Shown here one piece after another: positions 54,554-62,844 of a stretch of 64,000 nt of DNA. The stretch comes from Streptomyces antibioticus. GTDB lineage: Bacteria; Actinomycetota; Actinomycetes; Streptomycetales; Streptomycetaceae. Where the stretch lies: positions 484,474 to 548,473 of the forward strand of contig NZ_KQ948427.1 of NCBI RefSeq assembly GCF_001514065.1. Reading direction: 5' to 3'. Position numbers and translations under genes: made by a program. How positions within the stretch are numbered: position 1 is the stretch's first letter; every line of letters starts with the position of its first letter. The notes beneath the pieces were generated by a model. The model did not search any database. It saw only the letters and a list, made by a program, of their open reading frames with translations, and was not told the DNA's origin.

Positions 54554-54668
54554 CGCGTGACCGGATCATCCGTTCAGCCCCGGGACCTGCGGTCCTGGGG
54601 CTTGCGCATATGCCCCGAAACACATTGGGAACACAGGCTGATCAGGGATCTTTACGTCACGCTTAACC

Positions 54669-54712
54669 TACGGCTTCGTAACCTACGGATTCGTAGCCTA
54701 CGCTCTCGTAGG
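54669..54712 (+). promoter_or_regulatory. three phased palindromes upstream of the acyl-ACP desaturase
   Basis: TACGgcttCGTA (54669-54680), CTACGgattCGTAG (54683-54696) and CCTACGctctCGTAGG (54697-54712) share the form CCTACG-N4-CGTAGG. Their centres are exactly 15 bp apart, about 1.5 helical turns. The array lies 67 bp before the desaturase start. It resembles operators of TetR-type lipid regulators. Confidence 0.8.
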
Positions 54713-54778
54713 TTCCGGTATCCGCTCGCCGGTTACCCGACTCTCCCCGGCTCTGTTATGCGTCCCCCTGGAGTTCCC

Positions 54779-55753
54779 GTGACGATCACTTCCCCTCACC
54801 TCGGCAGCCCCGCCGTCTGGACCGACGCCAAGCTGCTGTACGCGCTGGAGGAAGTCGTCGAGACCGAGCTCAACCGGCACCTGAAGGTCGCCAAGGACTG
54901 GATGCCGCACGAGTACGTGCCGTGGAGCGACGCCCGCAACTTCCCCGGCTTCTTCGAGGACGGCCAGGCCTGGGACAAGGAGCAGTCCAAGGTCACCGAG
55001 ATCGGCCGCATCGCGCTCGTGGTGAACCTCCTCACCGAGGACAACCTCCCCAGCTACCACCACGAGATCGCCTCCCTGTTCGGCCGCGACGGCGCCTGGG
55101 GCACCTGGGTGCACCGCTGGACCGCCGAGGAGGGCCGGCACGGCATCGTGATGCGCGACTACCTGCTCGCCTCGCGCGCGGTGGACCCGGACAAGCTGGA
55201 AGCGTTCCGCATGCAGCACATGTCGGAGGGCTTCGAGTCCGACAACCGCCACTCCATGCTGCACTCGGTCGCCTACGTCGCCTTCCAGGAACTCGCGACC
55301 CGCATCTCGCACCGCAACACCGGTCACCAGTCCGGCGACCCCGTCTGCGACCGCATGCTGGCGCGCATCGCGACCGACGAGAACCTCCACATGGTCTTCT
55401 ACCGCAACCTCCTGAAGGCAGCGTTCGAGCTCGCGCCCGACCTGACCATGCAGGCGGTCCGGGACGTGGTCGTGAACTTCCGGATGCCCGGCCACGGCAT
55501 GCCCGGCTTCGAGCGCTTCGCCGCGCAGATGGCCATCGGCGAGGTCTACAACATGCGCATCCACCACGACGACGTCCTCCAGCCGGTCCTGCGCCACCTG
55601 AAGGTCATGGAGATCGACGGCCTCGGCCCCGAGGGCCAGCAGGCCCAGGACGAGCTCGGCATGTTCATGGGCGGCCTGGACGCGGAGGCCCTGAAGTTCG
55701 ACGAGAAGCTGGCGGCCCGCAAGGCGCGCATGGCGGCACGCGCGGCGGGCTGA
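54779..55753 (+). CDS. acyl-ACP desaturase (stearoyl-ACP delta-9 type, soluble diiron)
   Basis: A 324-residue ferritin-like diiron enzyme that introduces a double bond into acyl-ACP or acyl-CoA. Diiron ligands are in WTAEEGRHGIVMRDYL (EExxH) and RIATDENLHMVFYRNL (DExxH), with further Glu in ALEEVVETELNRHLK. The family is FA_desaturase_2. The GTG start (VTITSPHLG) follows GGAG at good spacing. The three palindromes before it point to tight control, probably by membrane lipid state. No redox partner is adjacent. Confidence 0.93.
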   Translation: MTITSPHLGSPAVWTDAKLLYALEEVVETELNRHLKVAKDWMPHEYVPWSDARNFPGFFEDGQAWDKEQSKVTEIGRIALVVNLLTEDNLPSYHHEIASLFGRDGAWGTWVHRWTAEEGRHGIVMRDYLLASRAVDPDKLEAFRMQHMSEGFESDNRHSMLHSVAYVAFQELATRISHRNTGHQSGDPVCDRMLARIATDENLHMVFYRNLLKAAFELAPDLTMQAVRDVVVNFRMPGHGMPGFERFAAQMAIGEVYNMRIHHDDVLQPVLRHLKVMEIDGLGPEGQQAQDELGMFMGGLDAEALKFDEKLAARKARMAARAAG

Positions 55754-55818
55754 CCCCCAGCCGGGGTCCTGCCGATTTTCCGGTGCGGTCCGGCCCCGAC
55801 CAGCGGCATCATGCCGCC

Positions 55819-56658
55819 ATGCGAGAGAACACCAGGACGGAGCGGGCGGTCGGGTTCCTGCTCGGCCTCGTCGACGAGAAGATCGCCGTACGGGTCCGGG
55901 CCCGGACCGGCCTGCCGGAGCCCGAGAGCCCCGCGCAGGCCCGGGGCCGCCTCACGCGCGCGTGGAGCTGGGCCGGGAACCTGGAGGCCTCCGTCGCGCT
56001 GTGGATCATGGAGAACGACGACCCGCGGCTCAACGCCGTGGTGTGGCGGTACATCCCGACCGACGCGGGCCTGCGCCGCGCCATCGCGCGCGGGGTGCCG
56101 TTCGCACCCGGTCGCGTCGGTCCGATACCGGTCGACGCGACCTTGCCCGGGCAGGAGCCCGAGGTTCCCGAGGTCTACGTCCGTCTCGGCCTCGTCGGCG
56201 CCCTGCGCGAGGTCGGCAATTGGAGCGAGGGGCGCGCCGCCGCGTCCATGGTGCTCACCCGCGCGGACTGGGAGACGGTCGGTGCGGCGGACCGCGAACG
56301 CCCGCTGCCCGGTTACGCCCGCTGGGCGCTCGCCGTCCGCCCGGACTGCCCGCCCTCGGTGCGGGCCGGCTTCGGCGCGCACGCGAAGTTCACCCACCGG
56401 CTGCGCCAGGCGGGCGTGTTCGAGAACCCCGCCGACTACGTCGCCTCCGACGGCCCGGCGCTGCGTGTCCTCGAAGTGCTGTCCCTGGGGCAACTCCTGT
56501 TCCCGGCACGGCTGAAGGAGGCCGAGGACGCCCTGCGGCCCCTCGTCCAGGAGCACTTGGGCGACCGCGAGGACGCGTGGGCGGTGCTGGCGCAGCTGAC
56601 GGAGACGTTCCACGGGAACGCCCCGGAACTGATCGTCACGGCGGGCGCCATCGCATAG
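55819..56658 (+). CDS. hypothetical protein of unknown function
   Basis: A 279-residue soluble protein without a domain I can recognise. It starts MRENTRTERAVGFLLGLVDE. Trp-rich segments (RAWSWAGNLEASVALWIMEN, NAVVWRYIPTDAGLRRAI) and helical stretches near the C-terminus suggest an all-alpha repeat fold. It is on the same strand as the desaturase with 65 bp between. It ends just before the CCA-anticodon tRNA gene of the opposite strand. Whether it belongs to the desaturase unit or the tRNA-linked locus is unclear. Confidence 0.65.
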   Translation: MRENTRTERAVGFLLGLVDEKIAVRVRARTGLPEPESPAQARGRLTRAWSWAGNLEASVALWIMENDDPRLNAVVWRYIPTDAGLRRAIARGVPFAPGRVGPIPVDATLPGQEPEVPEVYVRLGLVGALREVGNWSEGRAAASMVLTRADWETVGAADRERPLPGYARWALAVRPDCPPSVRAGFGAHAKFTHRLRQAGVFENPADYVASDGPALRVLEVLSLGQLLFPARLKEAEDALRPLVQEHLGDREDAWAVLAQLTETFHGNAPELIVTAGAIA

Positions 56659-56669
56659 TGGGGGGAGGG

Positions 56670-56746
56670 GGCGGGGCGGCTGGATTCGAACCAGCGTGCT
56701 TCAGTTTTGGAGACCGATGCGCCTGCCTCTGCGCTACGACCCCGCC
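56670..56746 (-). tRNA. tRNA-Trp-like gene, anticodon CCA, irregular acceptor stem
   Basis: On the minus strand the T-arm is GCTGG-TTCGAAT-CCAGC, the anticodon arm TCGGT-CTCCAAA-ACTGA (anticodon CCA at 56708-56710), and the D-arm GCGC-AGAGGCAG-GCGC. The acceptor is odd. With the usual two bases (TA) before the D-stem it has two mismatches; otherwise it is nine pairs (GGCGGGG plus CG) with one bulged T. No CCA tail is encoded. Its D-arm is identical to that of the GCA tRNA at 62676 and nearly so to that at 62593. It may be a specialised or decaying tRNA. Confidence 0.75.
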
Positions 56747-56835
56747 CTTGGCGCCCGATCGTAATGCCTTGGCCCGATGTCAGTGGGTCCTGGTACCAAT
56801 GAGCCACGGGGGAAACGCATTTCGGGGGGCAGGAC

Positions 56836-58239
56836 ATGGCGTACGGGGAGCGGGGGCGGCGTCCCCCTGTGGTCGACCTGGCCGACCGGCGGGCGCTGGA
56901 GGCGTACCGTCCGGCCGATCCGGAGGTCGTGGCTGAGGCGCGGCGGCTCAAGGAGGCCGCGCTGCTGGACTTCGGGCTGACGGAGTCCGCCGTGGCGTCC
57001 TGGCTGTACGCGAAGTGCCATCACCAGATCCCGACGACCGCGATCGACACGGCGGCCGTGGTGGCGTCCGGCGACGGCAGCTGTCTGCTGCTCTACAACC
57101 CGGGCTTCTTCACCGGCCTCGGCCTGGACGGCGTCAAGTTCGTCCTGTTCCACGAGGCACGCCATCTGGTGCACCGCCATCTGTTCGCCGACGAGGAGCT
57201 CCGGGACGACCCGGTCTTCGAGCTGGCCGCCGAGGTGTCCATCAACCATGTGGCGCTGATCCGGCTCGGCAGGACCGAACTCCCGCTGCTGGACGGCCGG
57301 CCGACGGGCATCGACCCGCGCAAGGTGTACGAGCACTACTGCGCGGACCTGACGGCGCACGGCCTGGAGCCCGTCCCGTACGAGACGTTCACCGAGACGG
57401 ACATGCGGGTGTACGGCGAGCTGAAGCGCATGCACCGCCCACCGGTGCCGGAGCACCGCCTGTGCGTGCACATGCAGGGCGGCCTCGTCCCCGCCGACCA
57501 GGAGACCGTCGACGCGGTGACGTCGTCCGCGCTGCTCAACTCCCTGCTGGCGGCCCGGCGCGGGCACGCGGGCGCGGAGCGGGAGCTGCTCGACCTGATG
57601 GGCCGCACCGAGGACGGGAATGCGCGGGCCGCCCGGATCTGGGGAAACCTGGGCGCGGGCATGCTGCGCGGCGAGACCACGCGCACGCGTACGGTCGACT
57701 GGTGGCAGCGCTGGCTGGTCGACGTGCTCGGCTCCAAGCTGCGTGACGGTGAGCGGCTGGTCTACCCGAAGAAGCGGGGCGCGCTGCTCGCCGCCCTCGG
57801 CCAGGACCCGATGCTGGCGCGCCGCGGCCCGGTCCGGGACAAGGTGCTGGTCATCGCGTACGACACCTCGGGTTCGATGCCGCAGCACGTGATCGGCTGG
57901 CTCACCGAACTGGTGGGCCGCATCGACGGCGTGGAGGCGCACTGGCTGTCCTTCGACGCCGTGGTGATGCCCTTCCGGCCGGGCGAGCGGGTCTACGGCG
58001 GGGGCGGCACCAGCTTCCAGGCGGTCGCGGACTACGTGGAGGGGCGCACGGAGGTGAACGGACGTCGTTTCGACGTCAGTCCGGACGCTGTCGTGATGCT
58101 GACCGATGGATACGCGCCACCGATCACGCCCGCCGAGCCGGAGAAATGGATCTGGCTGATCACCGAGGGCGGCAGCGAGTGGCTCGAGACGCACACACCG
58201 GCGATGGACTGCCATCGCGTCACCACCGGATCGCGGTAA
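56836..58239 (+). CDS. HExxH metallopeptidase-like / VWA-domain protein (DUF2201 type)
   Basis: A 467-residue protein in two parts. Residues 40-240 contain FVLFHEARHLVHRHLF, with HEARH at 106-110 as a zincin-type HExxH, and a following ELAAEVSINH that could give the third ligand. The C-terminal part has the metal-ion-dependent adhesion motif YDTSGSMPQ (343-349), later GGGGTSFQAV and MLTDGYA. This fits putative metallopeptidases fused to VWA-like domains (DUF2201). It precedes a MoxR-type AAA ATPase by 21 bp, the pairing known for chaperone-like metal-insertion or conflict systems. Target unknown. Confidence 0.88.
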   Translation: MAYGERGRRPPVVDLADRRALEAYRPADPEVVAEARRLKEAALLDFGLTESAVASWLYAKCHHQIPTTAIDTAAVVASGDGSCLLLYNPGFFTGLGLDGVKFVLFHEARHLVHRHLFADEELRDDPVFELAAEVSINHVALIRLGRTELPLLDGRPTGIDPRKVYEHYCADLTAHGLEPVPYETFTETDMRVYGELKRMHRPPVPEHRLCVHMQGGLVPADQETVDAVTSSALLNSLLAARRGHAGAERELLDLMGRTEDGNARAARIWGNLGAGMLRGETTRTRTVDWWQRWLVDVLGSKLRDGERLVYPKKRGALLAALGQDPMLARRGPVRDKVLVIAYDTSGSMPQHVIGWLTELVGRIDGVEAHWLSFDAVVMPFRPGERVYGGGGTSFQAVADYVEGRTEVNGRRFDVSPDAVVMLTDGYAPPITPAEPEKWIWLITEGGSEWLETHTPAMDCHRVTTGSR

Positions 58240-58260
58240 AGGCCCAGGGGATCACGGCAC

Positions 58261-60057
58261 ATGACCACGGACACACAGCAGTTGACGGTCTCGCGGCTCG
58301 AGTCCTTCATCGACGCGATGATCGACATGGGGCAGACGGGCCAGATCTTCGGCGAGCACGGCATCGGCAAGACGGCGACGTTCTTCTCGCACCTCGCCCG
58401 CGCCCACCCCGGCACGAGCCTGGTGTACGTCCCGGCGGCGAACCTGACGCCGGACGACCTGCTCGTCAACGCGCCGGTGCGCGATCCGCACACCGGTGAA
58501 CTGGTGCTGCGCCAGCTGGTGATGAGCCAGTTGAAGCCGGGCACGCCGTTCGTGCTGCTCATCGACGACTCGTTGCAGGCGGGCGACACCATCCAGTCGC
58601 AGCTGATGCAGATCGCCTGCAACTGGACGCTGGGCGAGCACGATCTGCGGGCGCTCGGCTGCGTCGGCGTCTTCCTCACCGACAACGAGTCCTTGTCGGA
58701 GACCTCGTCCCGGCGCGGTGACCTGGCGCTCCTGGACCGTATGGTCACCATGCGGATCACGGCCAACGACACGTCGTGGCGCCGGCATCTGGCCGCCAAG
58801 TACCGCCCGTGGGACCTGCGTCCGGTGTTCTCGCTGTGGGCGTCCCTCTCCCCCGCCCTGCGGGAGCTGCTGTCGCCGCGCACGCTCGACCATGTCCTCG
58901 CCAACGCGAAGGAGGGCTTCCCGCTGCGCTGGGGCCTGCCGCTGGTCGACGGCGACCGGCTGCGCCTCGCCGAGCCGGGCCCGGACGGAAAGCCCGGGCA
59001 GAACCGGACACGGGAGATCCTGGACCGGATCGCCGAGGCGGTGGGCGTGGCCAACCCGTCCACGATTCCCGACCCGGTACGCCAGGTCGTGCGCGCGGCG
59101 CTGCGCAACCGCTGGACGGTGCTGCTCCAGGGCCCGCCCGGCTGCGGCAAGACGGAACTGGTGCGGGAGACGGTGCGGGCGGGCCTGGGCCGGGAGCCGC
59201 TGTACTTCTCGCTGCCGGTGACGAACGTCGAGGACCTGTGCGCGCCGATCCCGTCGGCCGACGGCACCCTCGACAACCTCCTCGCCGCGCACTTCACCGG
59301 TCCCGAGCCGAAGGCGATCGTGTGGGACGAGTACAACCGGCCCAAGGACAAGGCCGCGTTCGCCAAGCTCATGGAGATCACCCAGGAGTGGTCGCTGGCC
59401 GGGCGGCGGATCGAGAACCTGCGCGCCCAGATCGCGGTGCAGAACCCGCCGTACCACCTGGGCCGCAAGCTGCTGGTGTCGCGGAACAACATCGCGCAGG
59501 CGACGCGTTTCACGGCCTCCCTGGAGGTGGCGCCGGAGGACATCCCGGCCAACGAGTGGCTGCTGGCGCGCTACGGCGCGGACGCCGAGACGGTCCTGGA
59601 GTGGTGGAAGCACGACATCGACGACGACGGCCGCGCCTGGATCACCAAGCGCACCCTGGAGCGGCTGATCAAGCTGCACCGGCGCGGGCTGCCGCTGGAG
59701 ATGGGCACGGTCTATCTCGGTGACGGCGAGTACGCGCCGGTGCCGCTCACCGCGCTCCTCGACCGCCTCAAGGGCCGCGAGGTCACCGGGCTGCGTGAGC
59801 TCGCCCGGGACGCCGACGCCTGGGAGGCGAGGCTGCGGCGGGCCGCCGAGCAGTCCGGGGAGGGCGGCAATGACAGTGACGTGGTCCACCAGATCCTCGC
59901 CAACGCGGAGCTGTCGCAGTTGAAGAAGCACCGCGCGGTGGTGGCCCGGCTGGTGGCGCTGCTGCCGGCCAAGCTGCGGGCGACGTATCTCGTGGGGGCG
60001 TCGGAGAAGCAGCAGCGGTTCTGGACGGAGGTGTTCATGGGGATGCGGAGACGGTAG
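58261..60057 (+). CDS. MoxR-type AAA ATPase with two AAA domains
   Basis: A 598-residue protein. The first AAA module has Walker A GEHGIGKT (31-38) and a Walker-B-like VLLIDDS (98-104) where the usual Glu is Asp. The second has Walker A GPPGCGKT (291-298) and Walker B AIVWDEYN (352-359), plus sensor-1 AVQNPP. The second domain seems the active one; the first may be less so. MoxR ATPases remodel complexes with their VWA partners, here the gene directly upstream. The C-terminal 180 residues are helical and charged. It converges on the LRR gene with 3 bp between stops. Confidence 0.9.
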   Translation: MTTDTQQLTVSRLESFIDAMIDMGQTGQIFGEHGIGKTATFFSHLARAHPGTSLVYVPAANLTPDDLLVNAPVRDPHTGELVLRQLVMSQLKPGTPFVLLIDDSLQAGDTIQSQLMQIACNWTLGEHDLRALGCVGVFLTDNESLSETSSRRGDLALLDRMVTMRITANDTSWRRHLAAKYRPWDLRPVFSLWASLSPALRELLSPRTLDHVLANAKEGFPLRWGLPLVDGDRLRLAEPGPDGKPGQNRTREILDRIAEAVGVANPSTIPDPVRQVVRAALRNRWTVLLQGPPGCGKTELVRETVRAGLGREPLYFSLPVTNVEDLCAPIPSADGTLDNLLAAHFTGPEPKAIVWDEYNRPKDKAAFAKLMEITQEWSLAGRRIENLRAQIAVQNPPYHLGRKLLVSRNNIAQATRFTASLEVAPEDIPANEWLLARYGADAETVLEWWKHDIDDDGRAWITKRTLERLIKLHRRGLPLEMGTVYLGDGEYAPVPLTALLDRLKGREVTGLRELARDADAWEARLRRAAEQSGEGGNDSDVVHQILANAELSQLKKHRAVVARLVALLPAKLRATYLVGASEKQQRFWTEVFMGMRRR

Positions 60058-60060
60058 GCG

Positions 60061-61236
60061 TCAGGCCTCGGGTGGGGCCGTGCGGTGCACGCTGCGCACG
60101 GCGGCCACGTCGGCCGGGACCGCCGGGCGCGGCACGTGCGCGCTGTGCGCCTCCAGGCGCCGTTTGACGCTCGCCGCGATGCCCTGGCCCAGCACGAAGC
60201 GGGTGGCCGTGACGGCGTGGGGCGCGGTGTCGAGGAGGCGGTGGGCCTCGCGGCTGCGCATGCCGGTGTGGGTGAGGACGAGGTGGGTGAGGCGGTGCCG
60301 TTCGGCCGACAGGGTGTCGGCGATGGTGCCGGCGGCGGCCAGGTCGATGTGGTTGTCCGCCGCGCCCAGTACGGCGGCCGCGCGCACCCGGCCGAGGTCC
60401 AGCAGGGTGACCCCGGTCGCCTTGGCGGCCGTCACCAGCCGGGCGGTGGCCCGCGGTCCGATGCCGTTGCTGGCGACGGCGAGCCGGGTGAGCCGCCCGT
60501 ACGGGGCCCGCTCCAGCGCGTGGGCCAGCCGGTCGGCGCCCGTGTCGCCCAACCGGGCGGCGGACACGTACAGTTCGTCGACCGCCCCGGCGGCGACCAC
60601 CGAGCCGAGCGCTTCCGCGCCCGCCTCACCCAGCGGATTGCCTCCGACGAAGAGCCGCTCGATGCGGCGCCCGTTGTCCGCGGCGGCGAGCAGCGCGTCG
60701 GCGAGGACCAGGGCGCCCCTCGCGTCGAGGCCGGTCTGGACGAGGTCGAGGGTGCGCAACGACCGCGCCGACTCGATGAGTTCGGCCGCGGCACGGCCCC
60801 CGCCGGAGCCGAGCGGGTTGCGTTTGAGCCACACCCCGGTGACGACCTGTGGCGAGGCGCGCAGCTGGTCGGCGATCCGGCAGGCACCGCCCGCGGTGAT
60901 CCCGTTGCACCCGAGGTAGAGCGTCTCGACCTCGGCACTCGCCCCGGCCACCGCCTCGGCCCCGGTGTCACCCAGCCCGTCGGTCCCGAGCAGCAGATGC
61001 CGTACCGGAGTCGGGCCGTGGCCCAGCGCCTGGGCGACCAAGGATGCCCCCTCGGCGCCCAGTTCCTGCTTGCACAGGTCCAGGCGCCCGTCCGGCAGGG
61101 CCGTACCGGCCGGGAAGTCCAGCCGTTCGCCGGCAGGTCGCCCGGCCCTCAACCAGTCCAGCAGCGGGGCGAGTTCGGCGGCCGGGCGCGGTACGACGGA
61201 CGGCACCCCGACGAAACCGCTCGTCTCCTCCGTCAC
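60061..61236 (-). CDS. leucine-rich-repeat (ribonuclease-inhibitor-like) protein
   Basis: A 391-residue protein of tandem repeats of about 28-30 residues, such as GLGDTGAEAVAGASAEVETL, GITAGGACRIADQL, PLGEAGAEALGSVV and RLGDTGADRLAHAL. The L-x-x-N-x-L-G-x-x-G-A pattern is that of RNI-type LRRs, which usually bind proteins. No signal peptide or catalytic domain is present, so an intracellular binding or scaffold role is likely. The GTG overlaps the SDR stop as GTGA (a second GTG is one codon upstream). It is translated with the SDR. Confidence 0.88.
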   Translation of the reverse strand: MTEETSGFVGVPSVVPRPAAELAPLLDWLRAGRPAGERLDFPAGTALPDGRLDLCKQELGAEGASLVAQALGHGPTPVRHLLLGTDGLGDTGAEAVAGASAEVETLYLGCNGITAGGACRIADQLRASPQVVTGVWLKRNPLGSGGGRAAAELIESARSLRTLDLVQTGLDARGALVLADALLAAADNGRRIERLFVGGNPLGEAGAEALGSVVAAGAVDELYVSAARLGDTGADRLAHALERAPYGRLTRLAVASNGIGPRATARLVTAAKATGVTLLDLGRVRAAAVLGAADNHIDLAAAGTIADTLSAERHRLTHLVLTHTGMRSREAHRLLDTAPHAVTATRFVLGQGIAASVKRRLEAHSAHVPRPAVPADVAAVRSVHRTAPPEA

Positions 61237-62561
61237 CACTCCGCCTCCTGGTAGTCCTTGAGGAACACCCCGGCCAGGGGCTCCCCCGCCTCCCCGCGCA
61301 CGATCGGGTCGTACACCCGGGCCGCCCCGTCCACGATGTCCAGCGGCGTCCGGAACCCGGCCTCGGCCATGCGGGCCTTCTTCGGTGCCGGGTTCTCATC
61401 GGTGATCCAGCCGGTGTCGACGGCACACATGTGCACGCCCTGGTCGGCGAGTTCGGCGGCGCTGGTACGGGTGAGCATGTTGAGGGCGGCCTTGGCCATG
61501 TTGGTGTGGGGATGCCCGGCCATCTTGTTGCGGACGGCGAAGCGTCCCTCGACTGCGGTCACGTTGACCACGTACCGGCGCGGCCGCGGCGAGGCCAGCA
61601 GCAGGGGCAGCAGCCGGTCGCACAGCAGGGCCGGGGCGAGGGCGTTGACGAGCTGGGTCTCCAGCACCTCGGCCGGATCGAGTGCGCCGAGCCGGGCCGA
61701 CCAGGAGTTCTCCGGGGACGGATCGGGCAGCAGTCCGGCCTCGTCGGCCTCGCGCAGGGCGACGGGCAGGGACGCGGCACCGCTCTCCAGCATCCGCATC
61801 GGCGTGAACCCGGGTGCCTGCCGGGCCCCTTCGGGCAGGGCCTCGTACTCCCCGGCGGCGAGCAGCGCGTACGACTCCGGCGGTCTGCGGACCGTCTGGG
61901 CGGCGTTGTTGACGAGGATGTCCAACGGCCGCCCCTCCTGCCGCAACTCCTCGCACAGGCCGAGCACTTGACGGGGGTCGCGGAGGTCGACGGCGAGCAC
62001 GGTCAGCCGGTCGAGCCACTTCCCGCTGCCGGGCTCGGCCCGGAAACGGCGCAGGGTGTCGTGCGGGAAGCGGGAGGTGACCAGCAGCTCGGCGCCGTCC
62101 CGCAGCATCATCAGGGCGAGTTGGAAGCCGATCTTCACCCGGCCGCCGGTGAGCAGGGCGCGGCGGCCGGTGAGGTCGGTGCTCAGGGCGCGGCGGGCGG
62201 TGTTGTCGGCGGCGCAGGAAGGGCAGAGCCGGTGGTAGAAGGAGTCGACCTCTCGATAGGGCGACTTGCAGACATAGCAGGTGCGGGGTTTGCGGAAGAC
62301 TCCCGCGGTGCCCGGCAGGGCCAGCGGGGCGTCCTCGCGCCGCTCCGGGGCGCCCGTCGCGGTCGCGGCCATCGCCGCCGCGTCGGCGGCCGTCACCTCG
62401 GCACCCCGCGTCTTGCGGCGGCGCAGGCGTCCGTCGCGGGCGAAGGAGGCGGCGACCTGCTCGGCGCGCAGCCGCACCGGGTCGTCGACGGGCAGGGCGC
62501 GCAGCTTGCCCACGACCTGGTGGAAGGCGGCCAGTTCCGCCTCGCTGATCGCCTCGCCCAT
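61233..62561 (-). CDS. zinc-ribbon plus SDR-fold protein lacking the catalytic Tyr
   Basis: A 442-residue protein. After about 90 residues of linker comes a four-Cys zinc ribbon (C95, C98 in TCYVCKS; C113, C116 in LCPSCA). Residues 130-440 are an SDR fold with TGGRVKIG, LVNNAAQT and NVTAVEG. Where SDRs have YxxxK this one has TNMAK (353-357), in the string GHPHTNMAKAALNML. The Lys remains but Tyr is Thr, so normal dehydrogenase chemistry is doubtful. From memory a eukaryotic SDR group shares the PHTNMAKAA string. It is the first protein gene behind the two tRNA genes. Confidence 0.85.
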   Translation of the reverse strand: MGEAISEAELAAFHQVVGKLRALPVDDPVRLRAEQVAASFARDGRLRRRKTRGAEVTAADAAAMAATATGAPERREDAPLALPGTAGVFRKPRTCYVCKSPYREVDSFYHRLCPSCAADNTARRALSTDLTGRRALLTGGRVKIGFQLALMMLRDGAELLVTSRFPHDTLRRFRAEPGSGKWLDRLTVLAVDLRDPRQVLGLCEELRQEGRPLDILVNNAAQTVRRPPESYALLAAGEYEALPEGARQAPGFTPMRMLESGAASLPVALREADEAGLLPDPSPENSWSARLGALDPAEVLETQLVNALAPALLCDRLLPLLLASPRPRRYVVNVTAVEGRFAVRNKMAGHPHTNMAKAALNMLTRTSAAELADQGVHMCAVDTGWITDENPAPKKARMAEAGFRTPLDIVDGAARVYDPIVRGEAGEPLAGVFLKDYQEAEW

Positions 62562-62592
62562 GTGCCGTCCCCGCCCCGTGTTCGCCGTACCG

Positions 62593-62664
62593 CGGTCCCG
62601 ACCGGATTCGAACCGGCGTATCCGCCCTGACAAGGCGGCGAGTCTGCCTCTGCTCTACGGGACC
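62593..62664 (-). tRNA. atypical tRNA-Asp gene, anticodon GTC
   Basis: Minus strand: acceptor GGTCCCG with CGGGACC (7 pairs), D-arm GAGC-AGAGGCAG-ACTC, anticodon arm CCGCC-TTGTCAG-GGCGG (GTC at 62629-62631), T-arm GCCGG-TTCGAAT-CCGGT. The discriminator is G, as AspRS requires. No CCA is encoded. The D-arm type is shared with the other two tRNAs here and differs from the standard Streptomyces tRNA-Asp as I remember it. It ends 31 bp before the SDR start and could be cotranscribed. Confidence 0.85.
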
Positions 62665-62675
62665 CCGCGAACGCA

Positions 62676-62747
62676 CCCGGACGGCCGGATTCGAACCGGC
62701 GTGATCGCCTGTGCAGGGCGGTGCGCCTGCCTCTGCGCTACGTCCGG
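62676..62747 (-). tRNA. atypical tRNA-Cys gene, anticodon GCA
   Basis: Minus strand: acceptor CCGGACG with CGTCCGG (7 pairs), D-arm GCGC-AGAGGCAG-GCGC, anticodon arm CCGCC-CTGCACA-GGCGA (one mismatch; GCA at 62712-62714), T-arm GCCGG-TTCGAAT-CCGGC. The discriminator is G, whereas bacterial CysRS relies on U73, so charging with Cys is uncertain. No CCA is encoded. It lies 11 bp upstream of the tRNA-Asp gene on the same strand. Confidence 0.82.
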
Positions 62748-62844
62748 ATGCGCTCCCGGATCTTAGCCGCACTCCGATCGGCCGGTCGCACGGATTTACG
62801 GGACGCCCTGGCGGTGCAACGGTGCCCGCAGGGGGTGACACACC

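Follow-up and report, generated by a model that had tools for sequence, protein, structure and literature searches.

A non-canonical tRNA gene family with switching anticodons, linked to LRR, MoxR-like and VWA/HExxH protein genes in Streptomyces and related actinobacteria

In Streptomyces antibioticus, a 64,000-nucleotide stretch of the 10.1-Mb genome (assembly GCF_001514065.1, contig NZ_KQ948427.1, positions 484,474 to 548,473; hereafter the window, whose numbering is used throughout) carries three unusual tRNA genes that bracket four protein genes, encoding a VWA protein, a MoxR-like AAA ATPase, a leucine-rich repeat (LRR) protein and a protein of the SDR fold. Judged by their sequences, the three tRNAs are members of one non-canonical family. 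Comparison with other genomes revealed a module, shared by Streptomycetales and a small number of actinobacteria outside that order, in which one to four such tRNA genes stand together with genes for an LRR protein, a MoxR-like AAA protein and a VWA/HExxH protein. The anticodon normally must not change in a tRNA gene, whereas in this family it is the fastest-changing triplet.

The three window tRNAs, here called P3, P2 and P1, all lie on the minus strand and were recognised by both ARAGORN and the Rfam model RF00005 (47.8-52.8 bits). P3 (56668..56745) is a Trp-CCA tRNA whose acceptor helix is lengthened and has a bulge, P2 (62592..62664) is an Asp-GTC tRNA and P1 (62675..62748) is a Cys-GCA tRNA. 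Their D and T arms are near-identical, while their anticodon arms and acceptors differ; read on its own strand, the D arm common to all three is TAG[C/A]GCAGAGGCAG[G/A]C[G/T]C. Ordinary Trp-CCA, Asp-GTC and Cys-GCA tRNAs with other D arms are also present among the tRNAs from 50 stretches of the source genome, and thus the three in the window are extras. A D/T-arm pattern matched 15 of 81 relative genomes and a looser version matched 97 of the 392 genomes of the genus; in a sample of the phylum comprising 396 genomes, the pattern and the LRR protein were each found in 2, and these belong to the genus. A chance motif is ruled out, as the reversed pattern gave no match in any of these sets.

Among the relatives, 186 raw motif matches gave 168 elements assigned to P1 (n=59), P2 (n=54) or P3 (n=55), with the window itself excluded, and nine classed as 'other'. 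The remaining nine were dropped, these being a double match in L135, elements with loops of other than 7 bases and second matches of one class per locus. P1 and P2 were sorted by the start of the acceptor and by their place before the SDR gene, so that the constancy of the acceptor is partly by construction, which does not hold for the variation of the anticodon. P3 elements share a longer, bulged GC acceptor helix. In genomes of the f3 group of the same order (L047, L048, L050-L052, L212, L214), family tRNAs lie between the AAA and SDR genes, and their anticodon-arm loop, read by eye, has about 19 bases instead of 7, with few variants.

Relatives of the window LRR protein were found in at least 62 loci of at least 61 of the 392 genus genomes, both counts being lower bounds since four candidates were scored per genome. 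A family tRNA lies near all 62 loci: 55 within 1.7 kb, the locus in G040 and six others, the farthest at about 3.5 kb. Counted by genome, family tRNAs occur in 61/61 LRR-positive versus 36/331 LRR-negative genomes. Loci of the window type (type A) were sampled by searching genome contigs with the SDR protein, and from this search the best 80 of 292 relatives were taken. These SDR relatives are mostly from Streptomyces, but also from Kitasatospora, Actinacidiphila, Allokutzneria and Kibdelosporangium. Family tRNAs, one or more per locus, are present in 72 of the 80 loci and non-family tRNAs in only 2, and every SDR locus in which LRR, AAA, VWA or the helical protein is also matched with a coverage of at least 60% has family tRNAs (54/54). 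VWA protein relatives occur in 13 of the 81 relative genomes, and the SDR-bearing loci fetched from these (9/9, window included) have a family tRNA directly before the SDR gene. No family tRNA accompanies two of the fetched loci in which VWA and AAA stand alone, and L049 has VWA, AAA and a tRNA with no SDR on its contig. The distribution of the loci is patchy and they are often partial.

A sequence-only reading of the window had proposed that the four proteins and the tRNAs belong together. The genes were not found to be rarely together, nor the tRNAs to be absent where the proteins are present, and this part of the proposal stands on the 54 SDR loci with partners and the 62 LRR loci. Its inclusion of the SDR protein as a fixed component fared less well. 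SDR orthologues beside a desaturase gene, without the other genes, are free of tRNAs in five of five cases and the second locus type, where read, has no SDR; an obligate partnership was accordingly rejected, and the SDR protein is probably an optional component. A second SDR paralogue (47-52% identity; for example G000:C6:268038-268865, locus L224) is common in the genus, and no family tRNA occurs in the seven loci read.

The looser pattern also found elements with an anticodon arm equal to that of the published tRNA-Asp-AUC, which was described from Streptomyces violaceusniger SPC6 with a four-gene cluster (Chen et al., 2022; PMC9262613, cited here and below from the accessible part of its text). 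In these type B loci the tRNA precedes an LRR gene homologous to that of the window (41% identity, E 1e-53). In L240, the only locus with a complete reading of the type B cluster, the LRR gene is followed by genes for an ankyrin-repeat protein, a MoxR-like AAA protein and a VWA protein with HExxH, the last assigned by motif reading; no SDR gene is present. Matching pieces occur in L230 and L243, and L249 is an exception, with a tRNA, ankyrin and MoxR-like genes and no LRR match. The anticodons of 18 distinct type B stretches among the matches listed are ATC (9), TGC (3), AGC (3), TTC (2) and GTC (1). In BLASTP comparisons, the AAA (E 0.006) and VWA (E 0.012) proteins of the two types are only weakly alike, while the LRR proteins are clearly homologous. 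The unbroken linkage of LRR gene and tRNA and the gene contents of both types suggest that LRR, MoxR, VWA-peptidase and tRNA form a shared core, and the SDR-fold and helical proteins (type A) and the ankyrin protein (type B) look like subtype partners.

Family tRNAs were also seen in other settings. Arrays with the anticodons CAC, CGC, TCG and the stop-reading TCA (L209:8143-8296, L210:8449-8741, L211:2603-2756) sit between a gene for an uncharacterised protein of about 405 amino acids and an MFS transporter gene, with no SDR, LRR or VWA matches. An Allokutzneria locus (L138:7309-9981) has three family tRNAs in alternation with a set of related small proteins, none of which matches Pfam. Of the plasmid collection, five records matched, and two of the three read carry a family-like tRNA; these are linear Streptomyces plasmids (GGC, L261:7002-7077; GCT, L262:5145-5222), with the partner genes absent from the annotated stretch. 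Viral relatives were limited to a single contig at 37% identity, in which no family element was recognised, and eight records of the phage collection gave short matches beneath annotated tRNA genes.

The anticodons of P1 and P2 vary widely. P1 elements carry GCC (19), GCT (15), GGC (11), CTC (5), GCA (5), CGC (3) and CCG (1), and P2 elements GTC (21), CTC (17), GGC (6), GCC (3), TGC (2) and five anticodons seen once each. When loci were grouped by SDR sequence into disjoint closest pairs, the anticodon differed in 17/29 pairs at P1, 17/27 at P2 and 0/27 at P3. In these pairs, substitutions affect 31 of 87 anticodon sites of P1 compared with 40 of 1015 sites in the D and T arms (Fisher P 3e-18), and 24 of 81 compared with 22 of 945 for P2 (P 2e-16), a rate about ten times that of the D and T arms. 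Bases 32, 33, 37 and 38 are also fast (41/116 for P1, 25/108 for P2), and the anticodon stem changes less (50/290 and 24/270). On the SDR tree, the minimum number of changes is 29 for P1, 24 for P2 and 1 for P3; the first two are close to the means for shuffled labels (34.2 and 28.3), which indicates that the anticodon at a given position depends hardly at all on species relationship. Nevertheless, the arms still fold: stem positions are paired in 251/270 (P1) and 209/210 (P2) cases, where the make-up of the columns would predict fractions of 0.79 and 0.90, with several pair types, and a folding constraint has thus been kept.

Copying of whole native anticodon arms accounts for the pattern only in part. 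Of 80 distinct arms that have a native isoacceptor, 20 best match a native arm of the same anticodon and a further 10 show a tie. On average, 9.46 of 14 sites agree with the same-anticodon native arm, compared with 7.96 after shuffling; when CCA is left out, the figures are 8.68 and 8.02, and one of 2000 shuffles reaches the former. Most family arms combine a Glu/Asp-like stem with a changed triplet, and several are equal to native arms.

Alanine tRNAs are identified by G3:U70, serine tRNAs by a long variable arm and glycine tRNAs by U73. In the family, none of the 23 elements with an Ala anticodon has G3:U70, none of the 16 with a Ser anticodon has a long variable arm and 1 of the 24 with a Gly anticodon has T73. 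The same acceptor strand goes with several anticodons (CCGGGCG with five, GGTCCCG with four), the discriminator base of P1 is mixed (G 28, A 19, C 10, T 2; n=59), as is that of P2, and C37 is found in 28 of 59 P1 elements; acceptor, discriminator and base 37 do not track the anticodon. The GCA element of the window has T73 by its ARAGORN ends and G in the P1 register. The alanine rule is also given in a review (PMC11415595). With anticodons uncoupled from acceptors and these rules failed, the elements are hardly ordinary isoacceptors. Ordinary duplication is disfavoured by the same failures and by anticodon switching, and the earlier suggestion that the extra tRNAs might act as replacements loses ground as far as ordinary replacement is concerned. 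Among elements with a 7-base loop, T33 is nevertheless present in 55/59 P1, 49/54 P2 and 54/55 P3 elements, as in a canonical cloverleaf.

Promoter-like boxes suggest how the genes are expressed. The motif TAnnnT lies 16-20 bases before 58 of 59 P1 elements and 17-21 bases before 53 of 55 P3 elements of the relatives, and before just 1 of 54 P2 elements; the corresponding -10-like boxes of the window, assigned from this conservation and the window bases, are TAAGAT (62760..62765, minus strand) before P1 and TACGAT (56758..56763, minus strand) for P3. P1 and P2 are 6-16 bases apart in 41 of 47 loci. Because a box is found at P1 and not at P2 and the spacing is short, P1, P2, SDR and LRR look like a single transcription unit, with P3 in a unit of its own. 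The palindrome TGGTACCA, at 56791..56798 between P3 and the VWA gene, occurs in 27 of 36 P3 loci with VWA and in none of 19 without, and is possibly an operator. The family tRNAs are probably transcribed. For the type B tRNA-Asp-AUC, expression equal to that of tRNA-Asp-GUC and better decoding of GAU have been reported in S. coelicolor (PMC9262613).

The protein genes form two tight pairs, as the sequence-only reading had described; its limits, the overlap, the gap and the flanking CCA, GTC and GCA tRNAs were all confirmed. On the plus strand, the VWA gene (56836..58239) encodes a protein with a PF13203 (DUF2201_N) match (E 2e-9), PF09967 being under the Pfam cut-off, and with motifs, read by eye, for a putative HExxH metallopeptidase domain (FHEARH) and for DxSxS (YDTSGS). 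It is followed by the gene for the double-AAA MoxR-like ATPase (58261..60057), which has an AAA_5 match (E 1.4e-9) and two P-loops. The AAA gene ends 3 bp from the end of the LRR gene (60061..61239, minus strand; LRR_6, E 3e-6), a GTG of which is shared with the SDR stop in a GTGA overlap. The SDR gene (61233..62561, minus strand) runs from an ATG at 62561 to a stop at 61233. Its product combines an N-terminal four-cysteine zinc ribbon (C95, C98, C113 and C116 invariant in 28/28 rows) with an SDR fold in which T353 replaces the catalytic Tyr of YxxxK in 28/28 rows, as aligned to the Tyr of SiaM. It thus lacks the catalytic residue of a classical SDR enzyme, and the zinc ribbon and the lost Tyr suggest a role in binding.

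The earlier inventory of four proteins and three tRNAs was sound as far as it went, but it missed the shared D and T arms and a fifth gene (55798..56658, plus strand; start uncertain, with an in-frame ATG at 55834). This gene, kept beside VWA and P3 in relatives, encodes a helical, 'TPR-like' protein that belongs to the locus as its fifth conserved member and evolves fast. In 141 pairs chosen by AAA identity above 85%, its mean identity is 0.64, compared with 0.90 for AAA, 0.89 for SDR, 0.86 for VWA and 0.82 for LRR; in all 276 pairs the values are 0.56, 0.85, 0.83, 0.81 and 0.76, respectively. An AlphaFold2 model (pLDDT 90) is all-helical, and a PDB search gave no match at E <= 0.001. Also in the window, an Rfam match to the ASdes small RNA (RF01781, 69.5 bits) lies at 55130-55197 on the minus strand, antisense within a fatty acid desaturase gene (54557-55753).

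We tentatively favour, at less than even probability, the view that the family tRNAs are baits watched by the LRR-MoxR-VWA module against anticodon nucleases. The fuller proposal is somewhat more doubtful: an RNA-bait guard system in which diversifying decoy tRNAs would be in an arms race with anticodon nucleases and the LRR protein and a MoxR-VWA metallopeptidase would provide the readout, and which would parallel, with RNA in the part of the decoy, the integrated decoys known from immune receptors of plants. On the bait view, the conserved D/T elbow would be held by a protein of the system, most likely LRR or SDR, and the exposed anticodon loop would stand in for abundant cellular tRNAs and be renewed as attackers change. 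If a phage or a competing bacterium supplied an anticodon nuclease that cut the bait, the LRR-MoxR-VWA complex would be switched on, and its protease or chaperone activity might then stop growth or remove the attacker. While binding, cutting and activation are steps that we infer, the constant elbow, the renewed loop, the loose acceptor identity, the LRR, MoxR and peptidase partners, the fast-evolving protein and the patchy loci make a bait a better fit than decoding, and a sensor or decoy role would fit the evolutionary pattern. The anticodon stems that stay paired, the promoter-like boxes and the slight excess of likeness between family arms and native arms of the same anticodon also count in favour of a bait. 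If a bait function proves true, it would represent a new principle of bacterial immunity.

Several observations weigh against a bait. The anticodon of P3 is CCA in 54 of 55 elements (GCA in one), which renewal of a bait does not explain. Of 26 SDR-only loci, 18 keep family tRNAs and the other 8 have none. Orphan family tRNAs exist, including CCA elements in L231, L234, L236, L241 and L244; those of L234 and L241 adjoin an ordinary tRNA-Ser (TGA) gene. Comparison of anticodon change with protein divergence gave no clear signal of co-change, the lowest P being 0.013 among eight uncorrected tests. PADLOC returned only weak, P-loop-limited matches for AAA (best E 9e-8) and none for VWA, LRR or SDR. 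The system has no known nuclease target, binding or defence phenotype. Finally, decoding of GAU by the type B member has been reported from a host that lacks the cluster (PMC9262613).

That reported decoding, together with tRNA-ProX (see below), makes programmed mistranslation the main rival, although we regard it as unlikely. An anticodon-blind charging enzyme would here place a wrong amino acid at changing codons, and the proteins would time this or handle the misfolded products. The uncoupling of acceptor and anticodon would suit such a scheme, but the discriminator base, which is a main charging signal, is mixed at P1 and P2, the acceptor stems of P1, P2, P3 and type B differ, and the frequent C37 of P1 also speaks against it. 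No aminoacyl-tRNA synthetase was found among the Pfam-scanned neighbours, no systematic search having been made. There is nonetheless a precedent in the same bacteria, tRNA-ProX with ProRSx, which shares G21 with the family (PMC10365949, PMC11415595), and the type B member is expressed and active in translation (PMC9262613). Mistranslation, if true, would amount to a retargetable rewriting of the code. Accessory decoding, in which extra tRNAs speed certain codons as proposed for tRNA-Asp-AUC, draws on the same expression and on the rescue of a GAU reporter in S. coelicolor (PMC9262613), as well as on the retention of U33 and the arms equal to native ones. It is quite unlikely, as hardly any element with an Ala, Ser or Gly anticodon obeys the identity rule of its amino acid, the anticodon switches almost independently of species relationship and the obligate company of the LRR gene is left unexplained.

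The tRNA could instead be part of an RNA-protein machine, its elbow serving as a scaffold for VWA or SDR, or a non-translational aminoacyl donor, the charged tRNA feeding a peptide-modifying step. The constant elbow, the zinc-ribbon SDR-fold protein with its lost catalytic Tyr, the long-loop f3 variants and the unusual P3 acceptor are in keeping with this, and Y RNA offers an analogy in its service to Ro60. However, a scaffold would work without renewal of the anticodon, and the window has no TROVE domain or Rfam Y RNA match; we consider this reading distinctly improbable. Very improbable, in our estimate, is that the tRNA genes are remnants carried by an old integrative element, as Chen and colleagues suggested for the type B cluster (PMC9262613). 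The patchy distribution and the family-like tRNAs on two of three plasmid stretches read would agree with such an origin, but remnants would not be expected to change fastest at the anticodon while their stems stay paired through compensatory changes and their promoter-like boxes and fixed place are kept. Bait tRNAs remain the reading we prefer.

Of the known systems, tRNA-Asp-AUC is among the closest to the present loci. A 32-base stretch of its anticodon arm, taken from printed primers, is identical in the type B locus L254, which has an LRR gene beside it, and its published neighbours, compared by description, include a GALA-type LRR protein and a MoxR ATPase (PMC9262613). It was found in 32 of 4649 genomes and published as one tRNA; the other anticodons, their switching, the type A SDR loci and the VWA/HExxH and ankyrin assignments are new here relative to the accessible text of that paper (PMC9262613). 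On sequence grounds, type A is a sister type of the tRNA-Asp-AUC family with a homologous LRR protein. Whether the tRNAs serve as baits or in mistranslation, tRNA-Asp-AUC, which raises antibiotic yields (PMC9262613), is one member of a large family.

The tRNA-ProX species, which carry Ala, Asn or Thr anticodons and are served by ProRSx, come from the work of Vargas-Rodriguez (2021) and Schuntermann (2023), as covered by the accessible parts of a commentary (PMC10365949) and a review (PMC11415595). They resemble the family in their occurrence in the same bacteria, in non-matching anticodons on one backbone and in G21, with C1:G72 also in P1. Their features are A33, A34, A15-A48 and ProRSx (PMC11415595), whereas family tRNAs have G15 with rare exceptions, mostly U33, G34 or C34, and LRR, MoxR and VWA partners. 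The A33/A34/A15 signature was not found in type A, where A34 occurs in one P2 element, and no ProRSx gene is present among the Pfam-scanned neighbours of the window, to which the search for it was confined. The MoxR-vWA ternary (VMAP) conflict systems (Kaur et al., 2020; PMC7159879) share a MoxR-like ATPase, a VWA protein and variable partners with the present module. In the accessible text of that paper, DUF2201, SDR and leucine-rich are not mentioned and the sole occurrence of tRNA is in the title of a reference (PMC7159879). Both locus types have a MoxR-type AAA and a VWA protein, that of type B by motif reading; the type B AAA protein weakly matches the bpMoxR model (E 4e-4), and no VMAP-type Pfam match to the third component was found among the scanned type A proteins.

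The Ro60-Y RNA ribonucleoprotein also pairs a VWA-domain protein with a tRNA-like RNA. The family differs from it in the lack of Pfam TROVE and Rfam Y RNA matches already noted for the window, and in that most members form a true cloverleaf whose anticodon loop has 7 bases. Titles and abstract openings in the literature yielded no description of the family as such, subscription papers and preprints being mostly outside the search. To our knowledge, no known kind of system joins tRNAs of diversifying anticodon to an LRR-MoxR-VWA-type module; one of the tRNAs and its neighbouring genes had already been published.

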